IMG/VR virus record: IMGVR_UViG_3300007514_000048
Span: 1-30,351 of that record
Strand: one strand, 5' to 3'
Length of the DNA stretch: 30,351 nucleotides
From: a virus
Position numbers and translations under genes: made by a program. Shown piece after piece: positions 1,665 to 30,351 of this stretch. How positions within the stretch are numbered: the stretch's first letter is position 1; every line of letters begins with the position of its first letter. A model generated the notes under the pieces. That model saw only the letters and a program-made list of their open reading frames with translations. It was not told the DNA's origin and did not search any database.

Positions 1665-2351
1665 TTACCATCCTTTAAAACTAACTTCACCTAATAATTC
1701 TATATTGCCTGATACGGACACCCTTGTACCTGGACTTTTAAATGGTGGTACCGAGTGTCTTAATTTTCCAGGAAAAATAAACATCATACCTTTTTCTGGC
1801 ATAAAATGATGTTCAGTTCTAACTAATTTCTGCCACTCTCCATAATAAAATGCAATAGCACCTGGACCTGTACCAACTCCTTTATATTTTTTCTCTTCAT
1901 CTAACATATCTTCTGGTATATCCAAATATAATACAAATGAAAAATCAGCACCGTGTGTATGTGGTGGATTAAACTCACCTGCTTTCATAAAGTTTACCCA
2001 TAAACTCATTATATTAATGCCTGTTATTTTTTTATAACCGTGGTTACCATCTGGTTCCACCATTCTTTCAAATGTTTCAAAATAAGGATTAAAATATGGT
2101 TTAAAGTTTTTTATAAACCAATCTATATCTGGTTTTTCAAATGAATTTTCTACCTTTATATGACCTGCCAAGTTTTCGCTATTATCTATATGTGTTTTTT
2201 TAGCTCTTCTTAATAGTTCATCACAAAGTTTATGGTCTACCATTGTCTTTGCTAATATAGGACCAAAAGGAAAATATCTATGTATGATTTGACCTTCTTT
2301 TTGTTCTTCCTCTTTACCTGTAATTGCTGAGCCTGGATTTAATTCTGCCAT
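1665..2351 (-). CDS. 2OG-Fe(II) oxygenase-like protein between genes 47 and 46
   Basis: A 228-residue protein resembling the putative 2OG-Fe(II) oxygenases common in T4-like marine phages (PF13759-like). It shows HTHGADFSFVLYLD (131-144), a distal His in FPGKLRHSVPP (H199) and Arg210 in TRVSVS. This fits an iron-binding facial triad plus a 2-oxoglutarate-binding Arg in a double-stranded beta-helix. H131/H133 is an HxH arrangement instead of classical HxD, as I recall for this family. The substrate is unknown; phage members are variously suspected of modifying proteins, nucleic acids or small molecules. Its ATG overlaps the gene 47 stop by one base (TAATG) and its stop abuts the gene 46 start. 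It is therefore embedded in the 47-46 operon and should be co-expressed with the recombination nuclease. Confidence 0.8.
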   Translation of the reverse strand: MAELNPGSAITGKEEEQKEGQIIHRYFPFGPILAKTMVDHKLCDELLRRAKKTHIDNSENLAGHIKVENSFEKPDIDWFIKNFKPYFNPYFETFERMVEPDGNHGYKKITGINIMSLWVNFMKAGEFNPPHTHGADFSFVLYLDIPEDMLDEEKKYKGVGTGPGAIAFYYGEWQKLVRTEHHFMPEKGMMFIFPGKLRHSVPPFKSPGTRVSVSGNIELLGEVSFKGW

Positions 2352-3403
2352 TATGTTTCACTCGCCTCATTATAAATTTCACTAACAAATTTTTTCAGTT
2401 TTGGTTTATCTAAATCTGTATTAATTTGGTCAATGTAGTTTTGTAAAAATGTCATAGTATCCTCACCTTGATCTAATATATTTTCTTTAACCGTTTCTGT
2501 AATATCTGTACCACCATCTTCAATAATATTAACTTCGTGTACATTTATTTCATTTTGTAATCTATCAATCATTCTATCAAACATATCTTGGTCTGTACGG
2601 TTGGTTACAAACACTTTAACAAAACAATCTGTATAACTTGTTAAATCTTTTTCATTATAATTTTCTTTTGTATCATCATAATTAATCTTTCTAAAAATTC
2701 TAAATGGATTTGCTACTCGTTCTAGTTCTCTTGTTGATGTATCAAAAATATGAAACCCTTTAGGACAATGGTAATCTGACCACATTATTTCATATTGAGT
2801 ACCTAGATAATAGATATGACCATCACTTGATTTTTTATGAAAGTGTCCTGATATAACCTTTTCAAATCTTTTAAATATTTCTTTTTCAAAACCTTGTTCA
2901 TTAACGTGTCCTCTATGCATTTCAAAACCTTTAACTTCTATATGGCCCATAAGAATCTCAGCAGTAGAATTATCTATCTGGTAATAAGAATCTTCCTCAT
3001 TGTCATCACAAATCCAAGGTACAAATAATATATCAAGACCATCAAAATTAACTTGTTGAGTCCTAGTATAAATTTTTGCGTTTTTGTTAATACTTAAATT
3101 GTTCATAGCATTTACTTCATTGGTATTCTTATAATATGTGTCGTGATTACCAATAATAATATGTGTATCAATACCTAGTTCTTCTAGTTTGTTCCAAAAT
3201 ACTTTTTTAAAATTGTGTGCTGTATTATGATTAATAAACTTTCTTCTATCTACCACATCACCTAAATGTATAAGTGTTTTAATGTTGTGTTCTATTAAAT
3301 ATGGAAAAAATACTTCATCATAAAATTTGTTTTGATATTTAACAAATGCTGGATTATCATTCCTACACCCAAAGTGAGTGTCATTAAGTAGTGCTATTCT
3401 CAT
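2351..3403 (-). CDS. 47: Recombination endonuclease subunit gp47 (Mre11/SbcD-like phosphoesterase)
   Basis: The nuclease half of the gp46/gp47 DNA end-processing complex, 350 residues, close to T4 gp47 (about 340). All metallophosphoesterase motifs are visible in order: DTH (D8, H10), GDVVDRR (D49), GNHD (N86-H87-D88), GHIE (H154) and GHFHK (H187, H189). These residues coordinate the two catalytic metals in the Mre11 family. The C-terminal part (about 230-350) would be the partner- and DNA-binding cap. The ATG overlaps the stop of the upstream oxygenase gene by four bases (ATGA), and the stop overlaps the next oxygenase start by one base. It is thus sandwiched between two 2OG-Fe(II) oxygenase genes in one translationally coupled operon. 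Confidence 0.97.
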   Translation of the reverse strand: MRIALLNDTHFGCRNDNPAFVKYQNKFYDEVFFPYLIEHNIKTLIHLGDVVDRRKFINHNTAHNFKKVFWNKLEELGIDTHIIIGNHDTYYKNTNEVNAMNNLSINKNAKIYTRTQQVNFDGLDILFVPWICDDNEEDSYYQIDNSTAEILMGHIEVKGFEMHRGHVNEQGFEKEIFKRFEKVISGHFHKKSSDGHIYYLGTQYEIMWSDYHCPKGFHIFDTSTRELERVANPFRIFRKINYDDTKENYNEKDLTSYTDCFVKVFVTNRTDQDMFDRMIDRLQNEINVHEVNIIEDGGTDITETVKENILDQGEDTMTFLQNYIDQINTDLDKPKLKKFVSEIYNEASET

Positions 3404-4035
3404 TTAGGTACCTCTGGTACATTTATAATTGACATCTTACCACCATCTAAAGGCACATAATAAAAATGTGTTATGGAAAATCTTCCTAATTGTTGACCTT
3501 TATCCTCTTCTTTCATATGTACCGTATCAACACTATGAGTTGCAAAGGATGGAAAGAATACAACACGATTATTTTTACACTCAATCGTATCTCCTATATC
3601 TTCTAAATGTAAATCTCCACCTGTAAATTTTTTTGGTTCTTTATATAAAAATACTATCTTCGTATAAACAGAAAAGTCCCAATGTCCTTTATAAAAATCT
3701 CCATCTTCATAGTAGTTTAATAGTACGGTACTAAAATTTAAATTTCTCATATATCTAAAATGTATATCTTTTGTTAGATAAAGTTCTTTTGGGTCTGCTA
3801 CTCTAAATAATTTTTTAGAACACCAATGATAATCAATTGGTTCGTCTGTTATAAAACGACCTGTATTTTTACCTACAACTCCAGTATCATCAATTGCTCT
3901 TGATGTTTCTTCTGGACTTAATAAGTTTCTTCCTAATCTTCTTATGTCAGGCCAGATATGACTTAATTCTGGTGGTGTAAAGTAGTTGTCTATAACAAAA
4001 TAAGAAAACTCTTTTTTATAAAATTTTATATCCAT
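3400..4035 (-). CDS. 2OG-Fe(II) oxygenase, prolyl-4-hydroxylase-like
   Basis: A classical iron/2-oxoglutarate dioxygenase core is visible: GHWD (His-x-Asp), distal His in FPSFATHSVD, and Arg in LGRFSITHF, preceded by NYYEDGDFYKGH, typical of prolyl-4-hydroxylase-like enzymes. Numbered from the longest frame (TTG at 4077), these are H132, D134, H181 and R199. The likely substrate is a protein or small molecule and cannot be read from sequence. The start is uncertain: no clear Shine-Dalgarno precedes the TTG, an ATG at 4059 or the ATG at 4035. I choose 4035 (211 residues) because it overlaps the end of a small membrane ORF by only ten bases and leaves the fold intact. It overlaps gene 47 by four bases. 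Confidence 0.83.
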   Translation of the reverse strand: MDIKFYKKEFSYFVIDNYFTPPELSHIWPDIRRLGRNLLSPEETSRAIDDTGVVGKNTGRFITDEPIDYHWCSKKLFRVADPKELYLTKDIHFRYMRNLNFSTVLLNYYEDGDFYKGHWDFSVYTKIVFLYKEPKKFTGGDLHLEDIGDTIECKNNRVVFFPSFATHSVDTVHMKEEDKGQQLGRFSITHFYYVPLDGGKMSIINVPEVPK

Positions 4036-4121
4036 ATCATTAATACTATCATTATGCATAGTAAGGCTATTAACCAAGGCAGGCTATCCATAAACAATTC
4101 TTTAATCCAAATCCACCACAT
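4026..4121 (-). CDS. Possible 31-residue single-span membrane peptide
   Basis: A small frame begins with ATG two bases after the TAA of the preceding oxygenase gene (TAATATG) and ends in TAA inside the start region of the next one. The product starts MWWIWIKELFMDSLPW and continues as an unbroken hydrophobic run (LIALLCIMIVLMIWI). This gives an aromatic amphipathic head followed by one predicted transmembrane helix. No good Shine-Dalgarno is present, but the tight fit between two genes suggests translational coupling. Small hydrophobic phage peptides can be membrane effectors or lysis-timing factors; no function is assigned. It could also be chance in AT-rich DNA, where hydrophobic codons are frequent. 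Confidence 0.45.
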   Translation of the reverse strand: MWWIWIKELFMDSLPWLIALLCIMIVLMIWI

Positions 4122-4122
4122 A

Positions 4123-4719
4123 TTAAAAATAATTTATTTGTATGTTTAATCTTTGTTGTTTGTCTGAACAACTTGTACTACAATGTTTTAATCCAGGATC
4201 AAACATTACAGCTCTGTTTGCAACACTTTCAATTTTTTGTGTTCCTAATTTTGTATAACCATCATTGGAGTTTAAGTGATATAAACAACCTCTATGTGGC
4301 CAAGGATAATCATTATGTATAGCGTGTTCTTCTACACCTCTTCCTGGTTGAGACCCTACATTAATAAACATATTTACCTTAACTCTAATTAATGCTCTTG
4401 GTTGTATCTTATCTAACAATGGATAACATACTTTAAAAAATGTTTGGTCTATATGCATTGAAGATTGATTATATAAAAGATTACCCAATAACATAAAAGG
4501 TGGGTCTGATGGTTTTTGATCTGCTGTAACCACAGGATTAAAATACCAAGGAAATATTTTTGACCCAATAACTTCTTGCATTTCCTTATGATGGTGTGGT
4601 TCAAGAAAGTCATCTATAATAACCACCTCACCTGTTTTTATTTCTATATGTTTGTCTAATCTTTCGTCTCTATGCCAAGGTTCTTTACCTTGCATTTGTT
4701 CTTTGGTAACATCAACCAT
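4123..4719 (-). CDS. 2OG-Fe(II) oxygenase-like protein
   Basis: 198 residues with a recognisable dioxygenase core: HNDY (H135, D137, the HxD motif), a following PWPHRGCLYHLN beta-strand region, a distal His in FDPGLKHCST (H179) and Arg190 in QQRLNIQINY. The N-terminal half is family-specific. Family knowledge supports Fe(II)/2-oxoglutarate-dependent oxidation; the substrate is unknown. It overlaps the late sigma factor gene 55 by eight bases and so is probably translated from the same mRNA. It is one of four distinct oxygenases of this fold here; their surrounding sequences differ too much for recent tandem duplication to be obvious. Confidence 0.78.
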   Translation of the reverse strand: MVDVTKEQMQGKEPWHRDERLDKHIEIKTGEVVIIDDFLEPHHHKEMQEVIGSKIFPWYFNPVVTADQKPSDPPFMLLGNLLYNQSSMHIDQTFFKVCYPLLDKIQPRALIRVKVNMFINVGSQPGRGVEEHAIHNDYPWPHRGCLYHLNSNDGYTKLGTQKIESVANRAVMFDPGLKHCSTSCSDKQQRLNIQINYF

Positions 4720-23656: not shown

Positions 23657-24466
23657 TTATCCTATCATCATTGCTGGATTTAATTCGTATGATGACCTTA
23701 ATTCTGATTCTAATTTGTCTTGTTCTTGTAAAGCTTGTGTATAAATTTCCTCACCTTTTAAGGTAACTCCACCTATCATAGCTACTCCAGCGAATTTACT
23801 TAAATTTGTCCCCCATTGTTTTTTAAATAGAGTAGTTGTATATCTCTTTAACCAAAGGTCATTATAAACATCTGTATAAGTGTTCGGGTCTAATTTTCTA
23901 TATGCTTCGATAACTAGATATTCTCCAACGGCTAAATCATTTTTCCAATCCATATCAACCCACAATTTGTTATCGTGCATATTAAATCTGTATGGTTTTT
24001 CACCTACTAGTACGTGGTCAAGGAAATCCAAATGCCTTAAAACTACATCATAGTTAATAATAGATGTTGATGAAAAATCATATAGGTCGTTTAATCTTAA
24101 TTGGTATCTAACATCAAATAGATTTAAATTTCCTTTATTAGAAAATGGAAAAATATTAATGACAGACATAACCGTTTCAGGTACAATTATATAATTGTTA
24201 CCTTCTTTCCAGTTGGTCACCGTACTATCTTTACCAGTAACCGCTTCTGTACTATCAGCTGTTGCTCTATCTTTATCTGCTTGAGTTAATTGATATTTTA
24301 AATATGTTCTTTTAATACCATCATAGTGATATTGAGACCAATATTGTAATGCTTCGTCCAATCTATCTTCTAGTTGGTCGTCATCAGCATTTATCTCTAT
24401 AACTGGCTTGCCTAAAGACCTCAAGGCATATTGTTTTAAATTTTCTCTGCTTGCTGGTTCTGCCAT
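23657..24466 (-). CDS. 13: Neck protein gp13
   Basis: 269 residues (T4 309). Head-completion protein that binds the portal after packaging. The N-terminal SRENLKQYALRSLGKPVIEI and DQLEDRLDEALQYWSQYHYD are the diagnostic conserved block, followed by YIIVPETVMSVINIFPFSNK, YQLRLNDLYDFSS and LWLKRYTTTLFKKQWGTNLS near the C-terminus. It is the first gene of the late morphogenesis operon 13-17, led by a late promoter 26 bases upstream and a TTAGGAAAC ribosome site. Confidence 0.95.
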   Translation of the reverse strand: MAEPASRENLKQYALRSLGKPVIEINADDDQLEDRLDEALQYWSQYHYDGIKRTYLKYQLTQADKDRATADSTEAVTGKDSTVTNWKEGNNYIIVPETVMSVINIFPFSNKGNLNLFDVRYQLRLNDLYDFSSTSIINYDVVLRHLDFLDHVLVGEKPYRFNMHDNKLWVDMDWKNDLAVGEYLVIEAYRKLDPNTYTDVYNDLWLKRYTTTLFKKQWGTNLSKFAGVAMIGGVTLKGEEIYTQALQEQDKLESELRSSYELNPAMMIG

Positions 24467-24491: not shown

Positions 24492-24499
24492 TATTTATA
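24492..24499 (-). promoter_or_regulatory. Late promoter TATAAATA (genes 13-17)
   Basis: Exact late octamer on the minus strand (context TTCTTATAAATATAGGG) in the 37-base gap between the bilin reductase gene and gene 13. It marks the boundary between the accessory operon and the conserved structural block. Confidence 0.88.
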
Positions 24500-24503
24500 A
24501 GAA

Positions 24504-25193
24504 TTAAGCAGTTATCTGTATTTTTGGGAACAGATTATCCGTACAGAATAATTTAACATCTGGTTCTGGTAATCCTAGCGATAACATTACTCTAGGAGTA
24601 TGTGGATTTTGTTGTTGGTGCTCACAATAATAGTTTTGAGCCTCTATAACATCTTCCTCTTTTGACCTTCCAGCGTATTTTCCTATTTTTTCCAAGTATT
24701 GTACTAGATTATATGTAGCTAGACCACATACTTTATTCAATTCTTTTTCAGTATTAATGTTACCAGCTGCTATCATACCTTTACTGAATATCTTTTTAGC
24801 CCAATCTGGCAATTCTCTAGGTTTAGTTGGTCTATACCATTCTGTTTCGTTAACAAACCACTCCGTTAATTCGTGGTCTTTCTTTAATAGTGGACTGAAA
24901 TCGTGGAAAGCACCTGTGATTTTATTCTTACCAGCAATAACATCAAAACCATAAATTGGTCCGTCATTATTAAGATTTGGAAATAGACAAATATGGGCCA
25001 TCCAAAGGCCCTTTTGTTTTCTTGCGTCCACTATATCAACGTGGGCTCTTCTACACTCTTTAGTTTTCCAAGTCCTATTAGTCCAAGTATCATTATTAAA
25101 TCTCTCCATACCTGGTTCCGAATATTCGGTACCATACATATTCAAGATTTTTACTATCTCATCTGTAGTTTTTATTAATTTCTCCCAAATCAT
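24504..25193 (-). CDS. pcyX: Ferredoxin-dependent bilin reductase, PcyX-like
   Basis: Reduces biliverdin to a phycobilin using ferredoxin (family PF05996: PcyA, PebS, PcyX). 229 residues, the compact phage size. Conserved blocks: CRRAHVDIVDA (47-57), GLWMAHICLFPNL (62-74), PIYGFDVIAGKN (79-90), FHDFSPLL (96-103) and FCTDNLFPKI (216-225). H67 and D84 are 17 residues apart, like PcyA His88 and Asp105. Retaining this His favours PcyX, the marine-phage enzyme reported to make phycoerythrobilin, over cyanophage PebS, where I recall Asn at the site. The acidic residue near the C-terminus is D219. It overlaps the heme oxygenase gene by four bases, giving coupled substrate supply. The product bilin must be confirmed experimentally. 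Confidence 0.9.
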   Translation of the reverse strand: MIWEKLIKTTDEIVKILNMYGTEYSEPGMERFNNDTWTNRTWKTKECRRAHVDIVDARKQKGLWMAHICLFPNLNNDGPIYGFDVIAGKNKITGAFHDFSPLLKKDHELTEWFVNETEWYRPTKPRELPDWAKKIFSKGMIAAGNINTEKELNKVCGLATYNLVQYLEKIGKYAGRSKEEDVIEAQNYYCEHQQQNPHTPRVMLSLGLPEPDVKLFCTDNLFPKIQITA

Positions 25194-25762
25194 TCCATCA
25201 ACTCTCTAAATAATTGTGTTGCGTAATCAAAACATAATAGCGCTTCATTTACTATATTCATTTGATAAGCATTGTAATAATTATTTATCTGTTCACGAAT
25301 CACTCTTTTACATTCATTTGGATTTTTAAACTTAAACATCATACCAGGTCCAGGTACCTTTTTTCTAAGCATTTGACCACCAGATAAATCACCTAAATGT
25401 CTAACATAAATGTGAGCCATTAGTTTTTCGGGGTCATCTTTAATCTTCTCCATATGCTCTATATACCTTATTGTAGATGGACAAGTATATGGTTTTTCTT
25501 CTCTTTTCCATAATGATTTAAAATCTCTATCAATCCATTCCGCTCTTTCAATACCAGGCATCCATTTAAACAAGCCATTCGCCCTAGCATTTACCTCTAA
25601 AGGCGAATAACATTGTAAATTATTATAAAGAAAAGTAGCGTATAAATCTGGATCGATTTTACCTGACAACATTTCTTTTACAAAGGCTTGACGTTCAGCG
25701 TCTCTATGATGTTTCATAGTTGCTTCTACCAAGCCTTTGACCGTTTTATTTACTTCAACCAC
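25190..25762 (-). CDS. ho1: Heme oxygenase
   Basis: Cleaves heme to biliverdin, CO and Fe2+, 190 residues. The proximal-ligand segment HHRDAE (H19) matches the H-x-x-A-E pattern of heme oxygenases. The distal helix has HLGDLSGGQML (122-132), with the flexible glycines and the water-organising Asp125. The start is GTG at 25762; the next ATG would remove the helix before the heme ligand. The GTG overlaps the DUF454 gene by 13 bases and a GGGAAAAGAG site lies upstream. Electrons would come from ferredoxin. The adjacent bilin reductase uses its product. Confidence 0.95.
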   Translation of the reverse strand: MVEVNKTVKGLVEATMKHHRDAERQAFVKEMLSGKIDPDLYATFLYNNLQCYSPLEVNARANGLFKWMPGIERAEWIDRDFKSLWKREEKPYTCPSTIRYIEHMEKIKDDPEKLMAHIYVRHLGDLSGGQMLRKKVPGPGMMFKFKNPNECKRVIREQINNYYNAYQMNIVNEALLCFDYATQLFRELME

Positions 25763-26181
25763 GCTACTCTTTTCCCTTCATTAATTCTTTGGTCGTGAAT
25801 TTCTTTAGTTGCTGGATATCTCCAAGCCCAAATTGCCACTAACGCCATACTACCACCACTCCATAAAATTGCATTAAGATTATGTGTGCTGTGCCATAGA
25901 ACAGCAACCGTACTTGCCATTACTATGACCATTGACCATTTAGCATAATTTGGAAAAACTCTATACTTCATCCAACCAGTTAAGAAAGGACCAAAGTATT
26001 TGTGATTGTATAACCACTTATGCATTTTTTCTGAACTCTTAGCAAAACAATAAGCCGCAAATACTAAAAAAATACTAAATGGAATCCCTGGAGTAACCAC
26101 ACCTATGTACGCCATACCTAAACTCAACATACCAAGAGTGTACCACATCCATTTTGGAAATCTACTCTTTTTTAATTCCAT
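25750..26181 (-). CDS. DUF454 (YbaN-like) small inner-membrane protein
   Basis: 143 residues from the ATG MELKKSRFPKWMWY. The DUF454 pattern is clear: LGMLSLGMAYIGVVTPGIPF, IFLVFAAYCFAKSSEKMHKW, then LYNHKYFGPFLTGW, followed by two further hydrophobic helices (WSMVIVMASTVAVLW and LWSGGSMALVAIWAW). The predicted topology is about four helices. The function of the family is unknown. The ATG at 26181 is chosen over a frame from 26220 because AGGAGGGG lies nine bases before it. It overlaps the preceding membrane gene by ten bases and the heme oxygenase gene by 13, suggesting a joint role with heme/bilin metabolism; this is inference. Confidence 0.88.
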   Translation of the reverse strand: MELKKSRFPKWMWYTLGMLSLGMAYIGVVTPGIPFSIFLVFAAYCFAKSSEKMHKWLYNHKYFGPFLTGWMKYRVFPNYAKWSMVIVMASTVAVLWHSTHNLNAILWSGGSMALVAIWAWRYPATKEIHDQRINEGKRVAWLK

Positions 26182-27197
26182 AACATTACCCCTCCTATCA
26201 GGATAACCATTGAACACCAAGTTATTAATGTAGTTAAGTAATATTTTAATGGTGTCTTAAAATAACCTTTACCTATCGCCAAGCATTTGTGCATTGGTGA
26301 TAATATATAACCACAAAAATCAACAGCAAAAAACCAAGGTAAGTAAGCAAGTCCATAGACACTTACTAACAATACGGTTATGGCTGCGAACCGTGAGGAA
26401 CTTCCTAATATGAAAGAACCTATAAAACTCATTAAACTAATTAACCAAAATCCTGTAGGTGATGTTATATCTAATCCTGAATTATATAATGTTTCGTGTA
26501 TGAGAGGAGAATAAGCTGTAGCGTAATTTGCCATTACAATAATACCAGCAATAAAACCTAAAAGTTTCCAATCTATATAACTTAATATTTTCTTATAATC
26601 AAAAGTACCTGTTACCGACATATAATATAATGTTAGTAATCCAAATACCCATAAGAAATGGATACCTGCCATAACACCAGCAATACCTAATACATAAGGC
26701 ACCACATATCTGGTTATTCTGCTTATCTTAATTTCTTTTTTAATTCCGTCTAATTCTATTCCATCTTCTTTTACAAAGAAAATTAAATAACCTAAAATAA
26801 AAGCAACCGAAACTGCAAGTAAAGGCCAAATAATTCCAAACCAAGCACCATAAGTTAAACCAAAAGCTGCCATAGGTAATATGACCGTCTTCTCTAATGG
26901 TGACCAAAAATAATAATGATGTGTACTTAAATAATCTATAACACCTAGTTTATGCCGTTCTTTTCCTCTAGGCGCCATACTATCTAATAGGCCTGCTGTT
27001 AAGGTGACTCGTCCTTTAATAGGTAAACAACCTGTTAAAGCACTTACTGAAGCTATTAATGCTTTTTTGGATTTTAATATTTTATGAAAATATCCATAAA
27101 AGTCTCCAAATAATTTATGGTCTTTTACTATACCTGCAATTATCATTATAAATGCCAGTAAGAAAAGATAAACTTGTCCTTGTATAATTAAATTCAT
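26172..27197 (-). CDS. Polytopic membrane protein, DUF401-like permease candidate
   Basis: 341 residues with about nine to ten hydrophobic helices spread through the chain. The first helices contain GQVYLFLLAFIMIIAGIV. The cytosolic-looking loop ALTGCLPIKGRVTLTAGLLD, followed by YLSTHHYYFWSPLEKTVILP, resembles the PIpGG...FRHiwEyfwPlyPg signature I recall for DUF401 integral membrane proteins. That match is from memory and needs a profile search. The substrate is unknown. It overlaps the upstream oxygenase by four bases (ATGA) and the DUF454 gene by ten, so it is part of the coupled operon leading into heme oxygenase. A transport role in heme, iron or bilin handling is a guess. Confidence 0.65.
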   Translation of the reverse strand: MNLIIQGQVYLFLLAFIMIIAGIVKDHKLFGDFYGYFHKILKSKKALIASVSALTGCLPIKGRVTLTAGLLDSMAPRGKERHKLGVIDYLSTHHYYFWSPLEKTVILPMAAFGLTYGAWFGIIWPLLAVSVAFILGYLIFFVKEDGIELDGIKKEIKISRITRYVVPYVLGIAGVMAGIHFLWVFGLLTLYYMSVTGTFDYKKILSYIDWKLLGFIAGIIVMANYATAYSPLIHETLYNSGLDITSPTGFWLISLMSFIGSFILGSSSRFAAITVLLVSVYGLAYLPWFFAVDFCGYILSPMHKCLAIGKGYFKTPLKYYLTTLITWCSMVILIGGVMLWN

Positions 27198-27805
27198 ATG
27201 ACCAACTTTGTTAAATCTGCTTCGGTTCCAATGTCTCCTTTAAAAAATGTATTAAAGGACATTGATACCCTAGGTGTATCAATTTCTGTTGTAGAAACTT
27301 CGTGTAATAATGTAGATGGAAATAAAATCAATCTACCTATTTCAAACTTAATAGCAACCTTTTGAGAATTGTAAGTATTACCTTCTTTGAATGCTGTTAA
27401 GTTTCCAAATACGGTATTAGTATCTCTATAAAATATTGTAGGTTGTCCTTCACCTTGATTGGAAGTACCGTGTACATATAATATAGCACTAATCAAACTA
27501 TTTGGATGGTAATGTGTATGATGTTTGGTAAATTTTCTGTTTATATTAAACCAAGATTGTGTAATATATACTTGGCACTTGTCATCTACACCTAACTCAT
27601 TACAAAATCTGTATAAATGTTTTTTACACCATATTTTTAATTTGGAAAATTGATGTTTGTTTAACATCTTCTTATTAGTAGTTGTGAAATTACCACCGTT
27701 ATTGGGGTGCATATCAATATCATCTAATACTTTTCTTTCCTCTACCGAAAAATCATATAAATCATCTGACTTATATATTGGTGTTGCAAATACATTTTCA
27801 ATCAT
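27194..27805 (-). CDS. 2OG-Fe(II) oxygenase-like protein (PF13759 type)
   Basis: 203 residues. It starts MIENVFATPIY, the usual opening of this phage family. The core has QSWFNINRKFTKHHTHYHPN, SLISAILYVHG, distal LILFPSTLLHEVSTTE (H168) and PRVSMSFNTFF (R179). H98-x-H100 is the likely proximal metal pair, followed by the NS-SaxlYv strand typical of the family. The substrate is unknown. It is coupled to the DUF6065-like gene by a one-base TAATG overlap and to the membrane permease-like gene by ATGA. It most resembles the oxygenase at 1665-2351 in type, but with a different N-terminal region. Confidence 0.82.
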   Translation of the reverse strand: MIENVFATPIYKSDDLYDFSVEERKVLDDIDMHPNNGGNFTTTNKKMLNKHQFSKLKIWCKKHLYRFCNELGVDDKCQVYITQSWFNINRKFTKHHTHYHPNSLISAILYVHGTSNQGEGQPTIFYRDTNTVFGNLTAFKEGNTYNSQKVAIKFEIGRLILFPSTLLHEVSTTEIDTPRVSMSFNTFFKGDIGTEADLTKLVI

Positions 27806-28422
27806 TATTTTTCCTCATCTTGACAAATCATTTCATAACTCTTTTCAGTAAGAGGTACAAGTTGACCTAATGGTGTTCCCGATTTAACGGTATGTTCACC
27901 TTCTAATATATGCCAATCTAATTGTATATTTATCTCTTTGCTTAACGTAGGGTCCAGGATTCCCATAACATTTGAAAACTCAAAGTGGTCTGGATATGTT
28001 ATAGGCAAAAATATAAATTTTAAACCTTTTGGTGCTACAACGTTCCAAGGTGTATGTATCTTAATAATACTCTTTAATGTATTTGGACTCCTTGGTATTA
28101 AACTCATAATATCATTTGTATGTGTATCTATTAAATTTCTAGGACCTATTGTCTCTTTGTTTACTTCCCATTTAAAACCAGGATTATCAGGCATTGTTTT
28201 AATTGTAAAATCAAACCAAGCACGGACAATGTAACCAGTTTTCATTAACTCAAACATTCCTGGACATCTATATGGATGGTCAAAATCTGTAAATAACTCT
28301 TTTACTCTTAAATAATCTTCCTTTGCTTTTTTAGTCCATTCTCTTCCTATTTCTTTTGCCTCTACTATAGGCATTAAATTAGATAGACCTTTTAATTTAG
28401 ATACAAACTTAATTCTTTCCAT
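27805..28422 (-). CDS. DUF6065-like protein next to a tryptophan halogenase
   Basis: 205 residues from the ATG MERIKFVSKLKG; a GTG at 28431 would add three residues. Conserved-looking features are HPYRCPGMFELMKTGYIVRA, KIHTPWNVVAPKGLKFIFLP, GILDPTLSKEINIQLDWHIL and EGEHTVKSGTPLGQLVPLT. I recall this layout from proteins labelled DUF6065 that often neighbour tryptophan halogenases and 2OG oxygenases; this needs a profile search. The second half (paired strands, with GTPLxQxxP like cupin turns) may be a beta barrel. It overlaps the halogenase gene by 14 bases. The function is unknown, but genomic linkage suggests it acts on the same substrate. Confidence 0.75.
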   Translation of the reverse strand: MERIKFVSKLKGLSNLMPIVEAKEIGREWTKKAKEDYLRVKELFTDFDHPYRCPGMFELMKTGYIVRAWFDFTIKTMPDNPGFKWEVNKETIGPRNLIDTHTNDIMSLIPRSPNTLKSIIKIHTPWNVVAPKGLKFIFLPITYPDHFEFSNVMGILDPTLSKEINIQLDWHILEGEHTVKSGTPLGQLVPLTEKSYEMICQDEEK

Positions 28423-29902
28423 ATGATTCACTTAAATATTCATAATGATTTTTAAAAAATAATTTTGCTTGTTCTACTCTATTATATTGATTAGCAATAA
28501 AATATTTGGCATACTTCTCTATTTCATCTGGTAATTTTTTAGAATTAAAACCTCCACCTGCGTGTAGCATTGAAAACCATTGTGTTAAGTTAAACATTGA
28601 GGAACTTCTATAGAAAAAAGCAGTCTTATTAATTTGAATATCATTTATTAATTGTTGAGAAGGTTGTGGTAATTGTCTTTTAGATTGATTTCTAATTTCT
28701 TGCCAAAACGGTGTATCATCTTTTGTACTATAATAATAATGAGAAAATATAAATGCAAGTATCTCATCATTAATTTCATTAAAGTAACCATTAATCATTT
28801 CTTTTGATTGCCAATTATTGTTATTTAATAACTCTACAACTGCTCTAACAATACTAGTAGTCCAAGTAAGATTATTTGCTTCTAAAGGTTCTATAAAACC
28901 TGCAGCTAAACCTACAGCACATACATTTTTTAAAGCTATATGTTTATGTGTACCTGCTTTAATATCAATATGTAATGCTGTAGATTTATCTTCACCAATG
29001 CTGTCTCTCAATTCTTTTTCTGCCTGCTCTGGTGTTATATGTTTACTAGAATAACAATAACCGTTTCCTATTCTTTCATAGGTTGGTATTTGCCATCTCC
29101 AACCAGCGTTCATTGTAATTGCTTTTGTATATGGGTGGCATTCTTCTTTAGGATTTGTATATGATTTTGGCATTGCAACTGCCTTATCACATAATAAAAT
29201 ATCTTTATATGGTATATGTGGTTCTTTTAACGCACCTTCTAAAAGCATACTTTTAAAACCAGAACAATCAATATATAAATCTGCTTTATAAAAATTACCT
29301 TCCTCATCTATTAGTGCTTTTATTCCATTCTCATCTACTTTGTAATCTGTTATTTTTGTTTCAACTAATTTAAATCTATTTGTTGTACTTCTATAATTTA
29401 CACAATGTTTAGCTAATACATCAACTATTTTTAAAGCATTGAAATGTACAGCACCATAACTTCGGTCTGCAATATTAAAATTAGTATCTAACCCATACCA
29501 TTTTGGACTTATATTCTTTTTTGCCATTTGATAAGAAGGTTGAAATCTTGTCCACTCTTCATTACTTTTGGAACCAAAATAATCTGTAATAAGTAAGTGT
29601 TGACTAACTAAAGAATTTTCTGGTGGTTCATTATCAACAAAGTATTTGTTTTTAGTCCAACCATCTAACTCAACACCATATTTAAAAGTAGCATCCGTTG
29701 CCGACATCCAATCAACTGGATGTAATCCACAATCATATAAAAATTGTGCTGTTGCTGGTTGTGTGCCTTCTCCAACTCCGATAGGACCTTGGCGTTTATC
29801 TTCTATTAAAGTAATATTAGTATCTGGCATTAAATTTTTCAACATATAGGCAGCCGTCAGCCAGCCACTCGAACCACCTCCAAGAATTATTATATTTTTC
29901 AT
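28409..29902 (-). CDS. Flavin-dependent tryptophan halogenase family protein
   Basis: 497 residues from the ATG MKNIIILGGGSSGWLTA. A longer frame to 29965 is rejected because this ATG overlaps the preceding stop as TAATG. Motifs: FAD-binding GGGSSG (8-13), IGVGEGTQPAT (41-51), the catalytic-lysine segment ATFKYG (K74, equivalent to PrnA Lys79), IDCSGFKS and the halogenase signature WRWQIP (268-273). Also present is AVGLAAGFIEPLEANNLTWT, the FAD/active-site loop. Such enzymes make HOCl or HOBr from FADH2, O2 and halide and direct it through the lysine to an indole. The natural substrate in phages is unknown; free tryptophan, a peptide or another aromatic compound is possible. No flavin reductase is seen in the window. 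Confidence 0.93.
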   Translation of the reverse strand: MKNIIILGGGSSGWLTAAYMLKNLMPDTNITLIEDKRQGPIGVGEGTQPATAQFLYDCGLHPVDWMSATDATFKYGVELDGWTKNKYFVDNEPPENSLVSQHLLITDYFGSKSNEEWTRFQPSYQMAKKNISPKWYGLDTNFNIADRSYGAVHFNALKIVDVLAKHCVNYRSTTNRFKLVETKITDYKVDENGIKALIDEEGNFYKADLYIDCSGFKSMLLEGALKEPHIPYKDILLCDKAVAMPKSYTNPKEECHPYTKAITMNAGWRWQIPTYERIGNGYCYSSKHITPEQAEKELRDSIGEDKSTALHIDIKAGTHKHIALKNVCAVGLAAGFIEPLEANNLTWTTSIVRAVVELLNNNNWQSKEMINGYFNEINDEILAFIFSHYYYSTKDDTPFWQEIRNQSKRQLPQPSQQLINDIQINKTAFFYRSSSMFNLTQWFSMLHAGGGFNSKKLPDEIEKYAKYFIANQYNRVEQAKLFFKNHYEYLSESYGKN

Positions 29903-30351
29903 TATTGACCTATCCCAAACATTTTCCGATTTTTTTCTAATACAAAGATACCTAACCCATTCCAATAATCAGTTGAATCTTCTATTTTTCCAGTTATCTC
30001 TTCTTTATATAAAACTTTATATCCCATTTTCTTAATACTTTCTAGTGTTGGCACTCTAACATTATCCCAATTCCAATCATCTACTATAAAAACAAATTGG
30101 TTATCCATTGCCGAATCCCATTTAGGTAATATATCATTATGAATACTATGGTCACCATCATAAAATAATATATTAGATTTCCAAGGTAATTGTTTTAAAT
30201 CAAACCCTAGAAAATCTCCTTGATAAATTTTAACCTCACTTTTACCAATATACTTTCTTAAATTCTTTACAAATATTTCCCTATCGTTTCCAACCTCTGC
30301 TTTTATATTCACTTCTGGCCTAGCAGGTGCTGTGTTCTTACCTTGCCAATT
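29902..30351 (-). CDS. SAM-dependent methyltransferase-like protein, 5' end cut off
   Basis: Open to the right edge; 149 residues are seen, starting NWQGKNTAPARPE. The first apparent start inside (GTG 30312) is not convincing because the frame continues past it. Features: EVKIYQGDFLGFD, SNILFYDGDHSIHNDILPKW, FVFIVDDWNWDNVRV and a C-terminal strand GLGIFVLEKN. The DGDH followed by a DDW strand is typical of Methyltransf_24-like class I methyltransferases; the glycine-rich SAM motif would lie beyond the window. It is joined to the halogenase gene by a one-base TAATG overlap. The assignment is moderate because only the C-terminal part is visible. Confidence 0.65.
   Translation of the reverse strand, partial: NWQGKNTAPARPEVNIKAEVGNDREIFVKNLRKYIGKSEVKIYQGDFLGFDLKQLPWKSNILFYDGDHSIHNDILPKWDSAMDNQFVFIVDDWNWDNVRVPTLESIKKMGYKVLYKEEITGKIEDSTDYWNGLGIFVLEKNRKMFGIGQ

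Follow-up and report, generated by a model that had tools for sequence, protein, structure and literature searches.

The stretch analysed here (the window; 30,351 nucleotides of the IMG/VR viral record IMGVR_UViG_3300007514_000048) belongs to a T4-like phage related to the pelagiphage Mosig, with genes for a late sigma factor, UvsW, UvsY and neck and sheath proteins. Four genes on its minus strand form an overlapping set. From 5′ to 3′ on that strand they encode a DUF401-like polytopic membrane protein (26172..27197), a DUF454/YbaN inner-membrane protein (25750..26181), a heme oxygenase (HO) with a GTG start (25190..25762) and a PcyX-type ferredoxin-dependent bilin reductase (FDBR; 24504..25193). 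The coordinates and the overlaps of 10, 13 and 4 bases reported in a preliminary description of this DNA were confirmed, the 10-base value applying to a DUF454 gene that starts at the ATG at 26181. The longest DUF454 frame opens at a TTG (26220), but the ATG is the likelier start: it is preceded by a Shine-Dalgarno sequence, AGGAGG, within the 3′ end of the DUF401-like gene, and it coincides with the starts of homologues. The set is not limited to four genes as had been described. The overlapping run goes on 5′ of the DUF401-like gene, still on the minus strand, with a 2OG-Fe(II) oxygenase (27194..27805; 4-base overlap; PF13759, E = 4.6e-20; phrog_81, 3e-35), a protein matching phrog_7084 (27805..28431), a tryptophan-halogenase family flavoprotein (28409..29965; PF04820, 1.6e-87) and another gene, up to the window edge. 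The downstream boundary of the island is the gene for the neck protein gp13 (23657..24466, minus strand; phrog_211, 4e-42).

Between the reductase gene and gene 13 lies the T4-type late promoter octamer TATAAATA (24492-24499, minus strand), where the preliminary description had placed a late promoter. Its count in the AT-rich window does not exceed chance (6 observed versus 7.3 expected), and all six copies are on the coding strand. Near the island only the copy at 24492-24499 and another about 2.2 kb past the window end were found, the latter in a contig that shares 99.97% identity with the window. These positions are compatible with a single long late transcript, which an octamer at chance frequency does not prove. 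Oxygenase-like genes are found at four places in the window (1665-2351, 3400-4077, 4123-4719 and 27194-27805); they match phrog_81, phrog_61 (2OG-Fe(II) oxygenase) or phrog_274, which is named DNA endonuclease V, yet is grouped here with the 2OG oxygenases.

The reductase matched Fe_bilin_red (PF05996, E = 1.2e-18) and aligned over residues 1-225 with the solved PcyX structure 5OWG (PcyX_EBK42635) at 357 bits (E = 3e-106), against at most 54 bits for PcyA. The residues H67 and D84, which had been put forward as the His/Asp pair of PcyA and as an argument against PebS, are invariant in the aligned reductases. Asp55 of 5OWG and Glu76 of PcyA correspond to D53 in the alignment; this position is Asp in the window enzyme and in all phage PcyX rows and Glu in the PcyA rows, and Asp55 is described as PcyX-specific in PMC11480375. 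In a tree with long outgroup branches the window enzyme was placed inside the phage PcyX clade together with 5OWG and Mosig (SH-aLRT 97), and PebS of P-SSM2 was a distant outgroup row. PcyA was ruled out by the Asp at the position equivalent to Glu76, by the bit scores and by the tree, and PebS by the distant placement of the cyanophage enzyme. From its sequence the window reductase is thus a PcyX, as first proposed, with a predicted activity converting biliverdin to phycoerythrobilin (PEB); PEB is the product of a characterised homologue (5OWG; PMC11480375).

The adjacent gene encodes, by homology, an HO-1-type heme oxygenase with predicted activity (PF01126, Heme_oxygenase, E = 4.8e-24). It aligns with human HO-2 and HO-1 and with bacterial heme oxygenases and contains the proximal His19 and the distal-helix motif GDLSGG (124-129), of which G124, D125, G128 and G129 are invariant across phage heme oxygenases, as is H19. 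The occurrence of this enzyme with PcyX in marine phages, mentioned in the preliminary description, is already known from the pelagiphage Mosig and from PMC11480375.

The families named for the two membrane proteins were also recovered, by different routes. DUF454 was well above its cut-off (PF04304, E = 2e-26, 92.7 bits versus 35.1). The window DUF401-like protein, a member of phrog_14035 (2e-69), gave by itself CitMHS at E = 0.015 as its best match and no DUF401 (PF04165) match above the Pfam cut-off, whereas DUF401 was recognised in 28 of the 33 members of its phage family (best 1.7e-12). Its DUF401 assignment, based on profiles, holds at the family level and not for the window protein alone. 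Its AlphaFold model (pLDDT 87, pTM 0.86) retrieved VcINDY with Foldseek (E = 5e-6, TM 0.71), as well as TRAP membrane subunits (TRAP-M) and ArsB, and on this model the protein is predicted to be a carrier of the IT superfamily with a VcINDY-type fold. A PDB sequence search with the family profile gave no meaningful match, and cellular relatives of the phage protein were found in one MAG contig only. SNT motifs are the substrate motifs of DASS carriers. They are absent from the DUF401-like alignment, where the equivalent positions are occupied by the invariant, SP-containing motifs HHYYFWSPLE and SPMHKC. Because this fold class carries small anions, di/tricarboxylates or a metal-carboxylate are more likely substrates for the modelled fold than bilins; a carboxylate would also suit the adjacent 2OG oxygenases.

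The preliminary description had linked both membrane genes to phage PcyX. We examined gene neighbourhoods in IMG/VR contigs, which are fragments with many near-copies, using simple longest-ORF gene calls; the trees were built from quick searches and some of their forks are open. For the DUF401-like gene the link stands: in many marine phage contigs it lies directly 5′ of the HO-PcyX pair. In a second group of contigs it is 1-2 kb upstream of the pair, with genes for DUF2490, Hsp20 and ClpS also present. The order in this second context (L101, L104, L106, L107, L110, L114, L115 and L134) is GMP reductase, DUF401-like, DUF2490 in some, Hsp20, ClpS, HO and PcyX, and the PcyX is about 50% identical to that of the window. 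Among contigs fetched by gp13 alone that extended 2.5 kb or more upstream, both HO and the DUF401-like gene were present in 11, HO only in 16, the DUF401-like gene only in none and neither in 23 (p = 4e-4 by Fisher's test). Mapped onto the gp13 tree, the presence of HO requires a single change and that of the DUF401-like gene three, which represents very few independent events; the statistical association in this set is confounded by clade and largely disappears when clade is taken into account. We therefore dropped any strong statistical claim for the DUF401-like gene with HO, the independent pairs being too few. The HO label requires six changes on the DUF401-like tree, and the DUF401-like label five on the PcyX tree, so that HO-linked DUF401-like genes pair with PcyX of several branches. 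The adjacency to HO-PcyX is maintained down to about 57% identity among DUF401-like proteins. Many phage DUF401-like genes, including those of cyanophages, have no HO nearby. The linkage is real in the sense that it is repeated, and it is not exclusive. Between PcyX and gp13, several relatives encode a secreted protein of 340-358 residues (L036:8706-9764, L068:8695-9768, L087:4537-5556 and others), probably an outer-membrane barrel judging from a signal peptide and a C-terminal Phe; it had no Pfam or PDB sequence match, and its identity as a porin is unsupported.

DUF454 gave a different picture. Beside HO it was found in one phage population only, consisting of the window and one contig 99.97% identical to it, which speaks against a general PcyX cassette of phages that includes DUF454; this half of the earlier proposal is not supported as it was stated. 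Phage DUF454 genes are found instead beside genes for 5-aminolevulinate (ALA) synthase (ALAS) and porphobilinogen (PBG) synthase, which we identified by TIGR01821, PF00490 and NCBIfam. Within 6 kb of DUF454, 20 of the phage loci anchored on it had ALA synthase and 8 had PBG synthase, in some cases directly adjoining it. Conversely, in the best 80 loci retrieved with ALA synthase as the only anchor, a sample that favours close relatives, DUF454 lay within 6 kb in 45 and abutted on the same strand in 31, usually following ALA synthase and in some cases preceding it. It was also present in 9 of the 42 PBG-synthase loci. None of DUF454, ALA synthase and PBG synthase was found in 157 control loci anchored on gp13 or on the DUF401-like gene. 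On the ALAS tree the presence or absence of DUF454 accounts for two changes and its arrangement for six, showing that the co-occurrence is kept while the gene order varies. The DUF454 proteins encoded beside PBG synthase are those most similar to the window protein (73-75%). In an alignment of 32 phage homologues H67, W69 and H73 of an H-x-W-(x)3-H loop are invariant, while bacterial members retain mainly the second His; a fold search of the PDB with DUF454 gave no match. Relatives of the phage ALA synthase are encoded in at least 564 stretches of IMG/VR viral contigs, and porphobilinogen synthase (HemB) genes are present in at least 42 viral contigs (among them L359-L397). One 177-kb contig, IMGVR_UViG_3300008952_000005 (L023, L386), has ALA synthase, PBG synthase, HO and PcyX together, without DUF454.

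In bacteria, YbaN follows heme oxygenase directly in a T11SS/TonB locus of Acinetobacter, and on a hemoglobin-receptor plasmid the two are separated by one gene. Two of our entries, L348 and L349, appear in the phage collection under the name Acinetobacter phage MD-2021a and resemble bacterial chromosome contigs. DUF454 and haem oxygenase have both been reported to co-occur with cluster-1 T11SS haemophore loci (PMC12282271), ybaN of E. coli belongs to the Fur regulon (PMC7157518, PMC10164565), and DUF454 of Avibacterium rises under iron restriction (PMC7970244). Other bacterial DUF454 genes often have no heme neighbour, and the Pfam heme oxygenase was absent from 21 DUF454-bearing genomes of one large-genome phylum. 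The repeated gene associations indicate that DUF454 is most likely an inner-membrane protein linked to tetrapyrroles or iron. A more specific role, as a dedicated handler of tetrapyrrole or heme iron that phages would pair, as a movable membrane component, with whichever of ALA synthase, PBG synthase or heme oxygenase they encode, is a tentative proposal to which we give slightly less than an even chance.

The two membrane proteins are thus separable, the DUF401-like protein recurring beside PcyX and DUF454 beside heme-synthesis genes. For the set as a whole we propose, at roughly even odds of being right, an auxiliary operon for heme turnover, with DUF454 handling tetrapyrrole or iron and the DUF401-like protein carrying a small anion. 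In this Mosig-like marine phage of the T4 type, the operon would occupy the variable island that precedes gene 13. The enzyme assigned as HO would open host heme to biliverdin, CO and Fe(II), and the one assigned as PcyX would reduce biliverdin to phycoerythrobilin with electrons from ferredoxin. DUF454 would act on tetrapyrrole or iron at the inner membrane beside whatever heme enzyme the phage carries, a role suggested by its gene linkage; it might handle heme or porphyrin, handle iron, or serve as an anchor. The DUF401-like protein, with its predicted fold, would be an IT-superfamily secondary carrier, for which a di/tricarboxylate or a metal-carboxylate seems likelier than a bilin. The net effect would be recovery of iron and/or removal of heme in the infected cell, and the bilin would be a disposed product.

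Three other explanations were weighed against the heme-turnover operon. The membrane genes could be passengers, HO-PcyX, DUF401-like and DUF454 having entered the same insertion hot spot ahead of gp13 and being read from one late transcript without acting together. The presence of the DUF401-like gene in similar tail-to-neck islands of phages without HO fits such a history, as do the few independent events on the gp13 tree and the Fe/2OG oxygenases, halogenase and other genes of the same overlapping run. However, none of the gp13-anchored contigs carried the DUF401-like gene in the absence of HO, against 11 that carried both, its adjacency survives large divergence and several PcyX branches, and the DUF454-ALAS linkage recurs in quite different genome regions and with reversed order; we regard the passenger explanation as doubtful, though the most credible of the three. 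It is less probable, and in our opinion unlikely, that the DUF401-like protein supports the 2OG-Fe(II) oxygenases encoded nearby by importing 2-oxoglutarate or citrate or exporting succinate, with HO providing their Fe(II). Its nearest folds are indeed the dicarboxylate symporter VcINDY and TRAP-M/ArsB, and 2OG oxygenases flank the DUF401-like gene in many loci with or without HO, the window included; but these oxygenases are generally abundant in such phages, which makes the neighbourhood weak evidence, and HHYYFWSPLE and SPMHKC replace the SNT motifs expected of a DASS carrier.

That the bilin itself is the purpose, with PEB or biliverdin acting as a host chromophore or signal that a membrane protein secretes or imports, appears very unlikely. 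The product made by the characterised PcyX homologue and the predicted outer-membrane protein after PcyX in some relatives would agree with it. Against it, the relative Mosig infects Pelagibacter, which is not known to have phycobiliproteins, the annotated genes of the window include no phytochrome or bilin lyase, and the fold class of the DUF401-like protein transports small anions. HO-PcyX in phages of non-photosynthetic bacteria has so far had no accepted purpose. A recurring carrier, and a DUF454 protein common to phage heme synthesis and bacterial heme uptake, suggest heme or iron management rather than light harvesting, and the heme-turnover reading would offer a directly testable role for DUF454 (ybaN in E. 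coli), a conserved family to which no function is assigned.

Several known systems resemble parts of this locus. The window reductase keeps the equivalents of the Asp55, His and Asp residues of PcyX_EBK42635 (PDB 5OWG), from which about one third of its residues differ. Its pairing with HO is that of the marine phage hemO-pcyX cassette in PMC11480375, where valaS is the third tetrapyrrole gene in a three-gene cassette of related phages and the text does not mention membrane genes beside hemO-pcyX; no ALA synthase of the valaS cassette was found in the window, which is an incomplete genome. In Mosig (EXVC030M, MT647606) HO and PcyX (52% and 67% identical to those of the window, respectively) likewise overlap and lie after 2OG oxygenase genes and immediately before the neck gene, but the locus has no DUF401-like or DUF454 gene between. 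Mosig also differs in carrying a ferredoxin and a gene annotated as ferrochelatase; no ferredoxin (Fer2) was found in the 49-kb sister contig of the window. The Mosig "ferrochelatase" (L002:3357-4127) matches no NCBIfam family, and its annotation is doubtful. The Acinetobacter hemO cluster and hemoglobin-receptor plasmid (L349, L350) share with the window an HO with YbaN/DUF454 adjacent or one gene off, but they are bacterial heme-uptake loci with TonB receptors and without a bilin reductase, and their DUF454 is about 30% identical. Finally, the predicted fold of the DUF401-like protein resembles that of VcINDY and the DASS/IT-superfamily carriers, from which this protein of 341 residues differs by its low identity (about 13%) and by conserving HH and HKC motifs in place of SNT.
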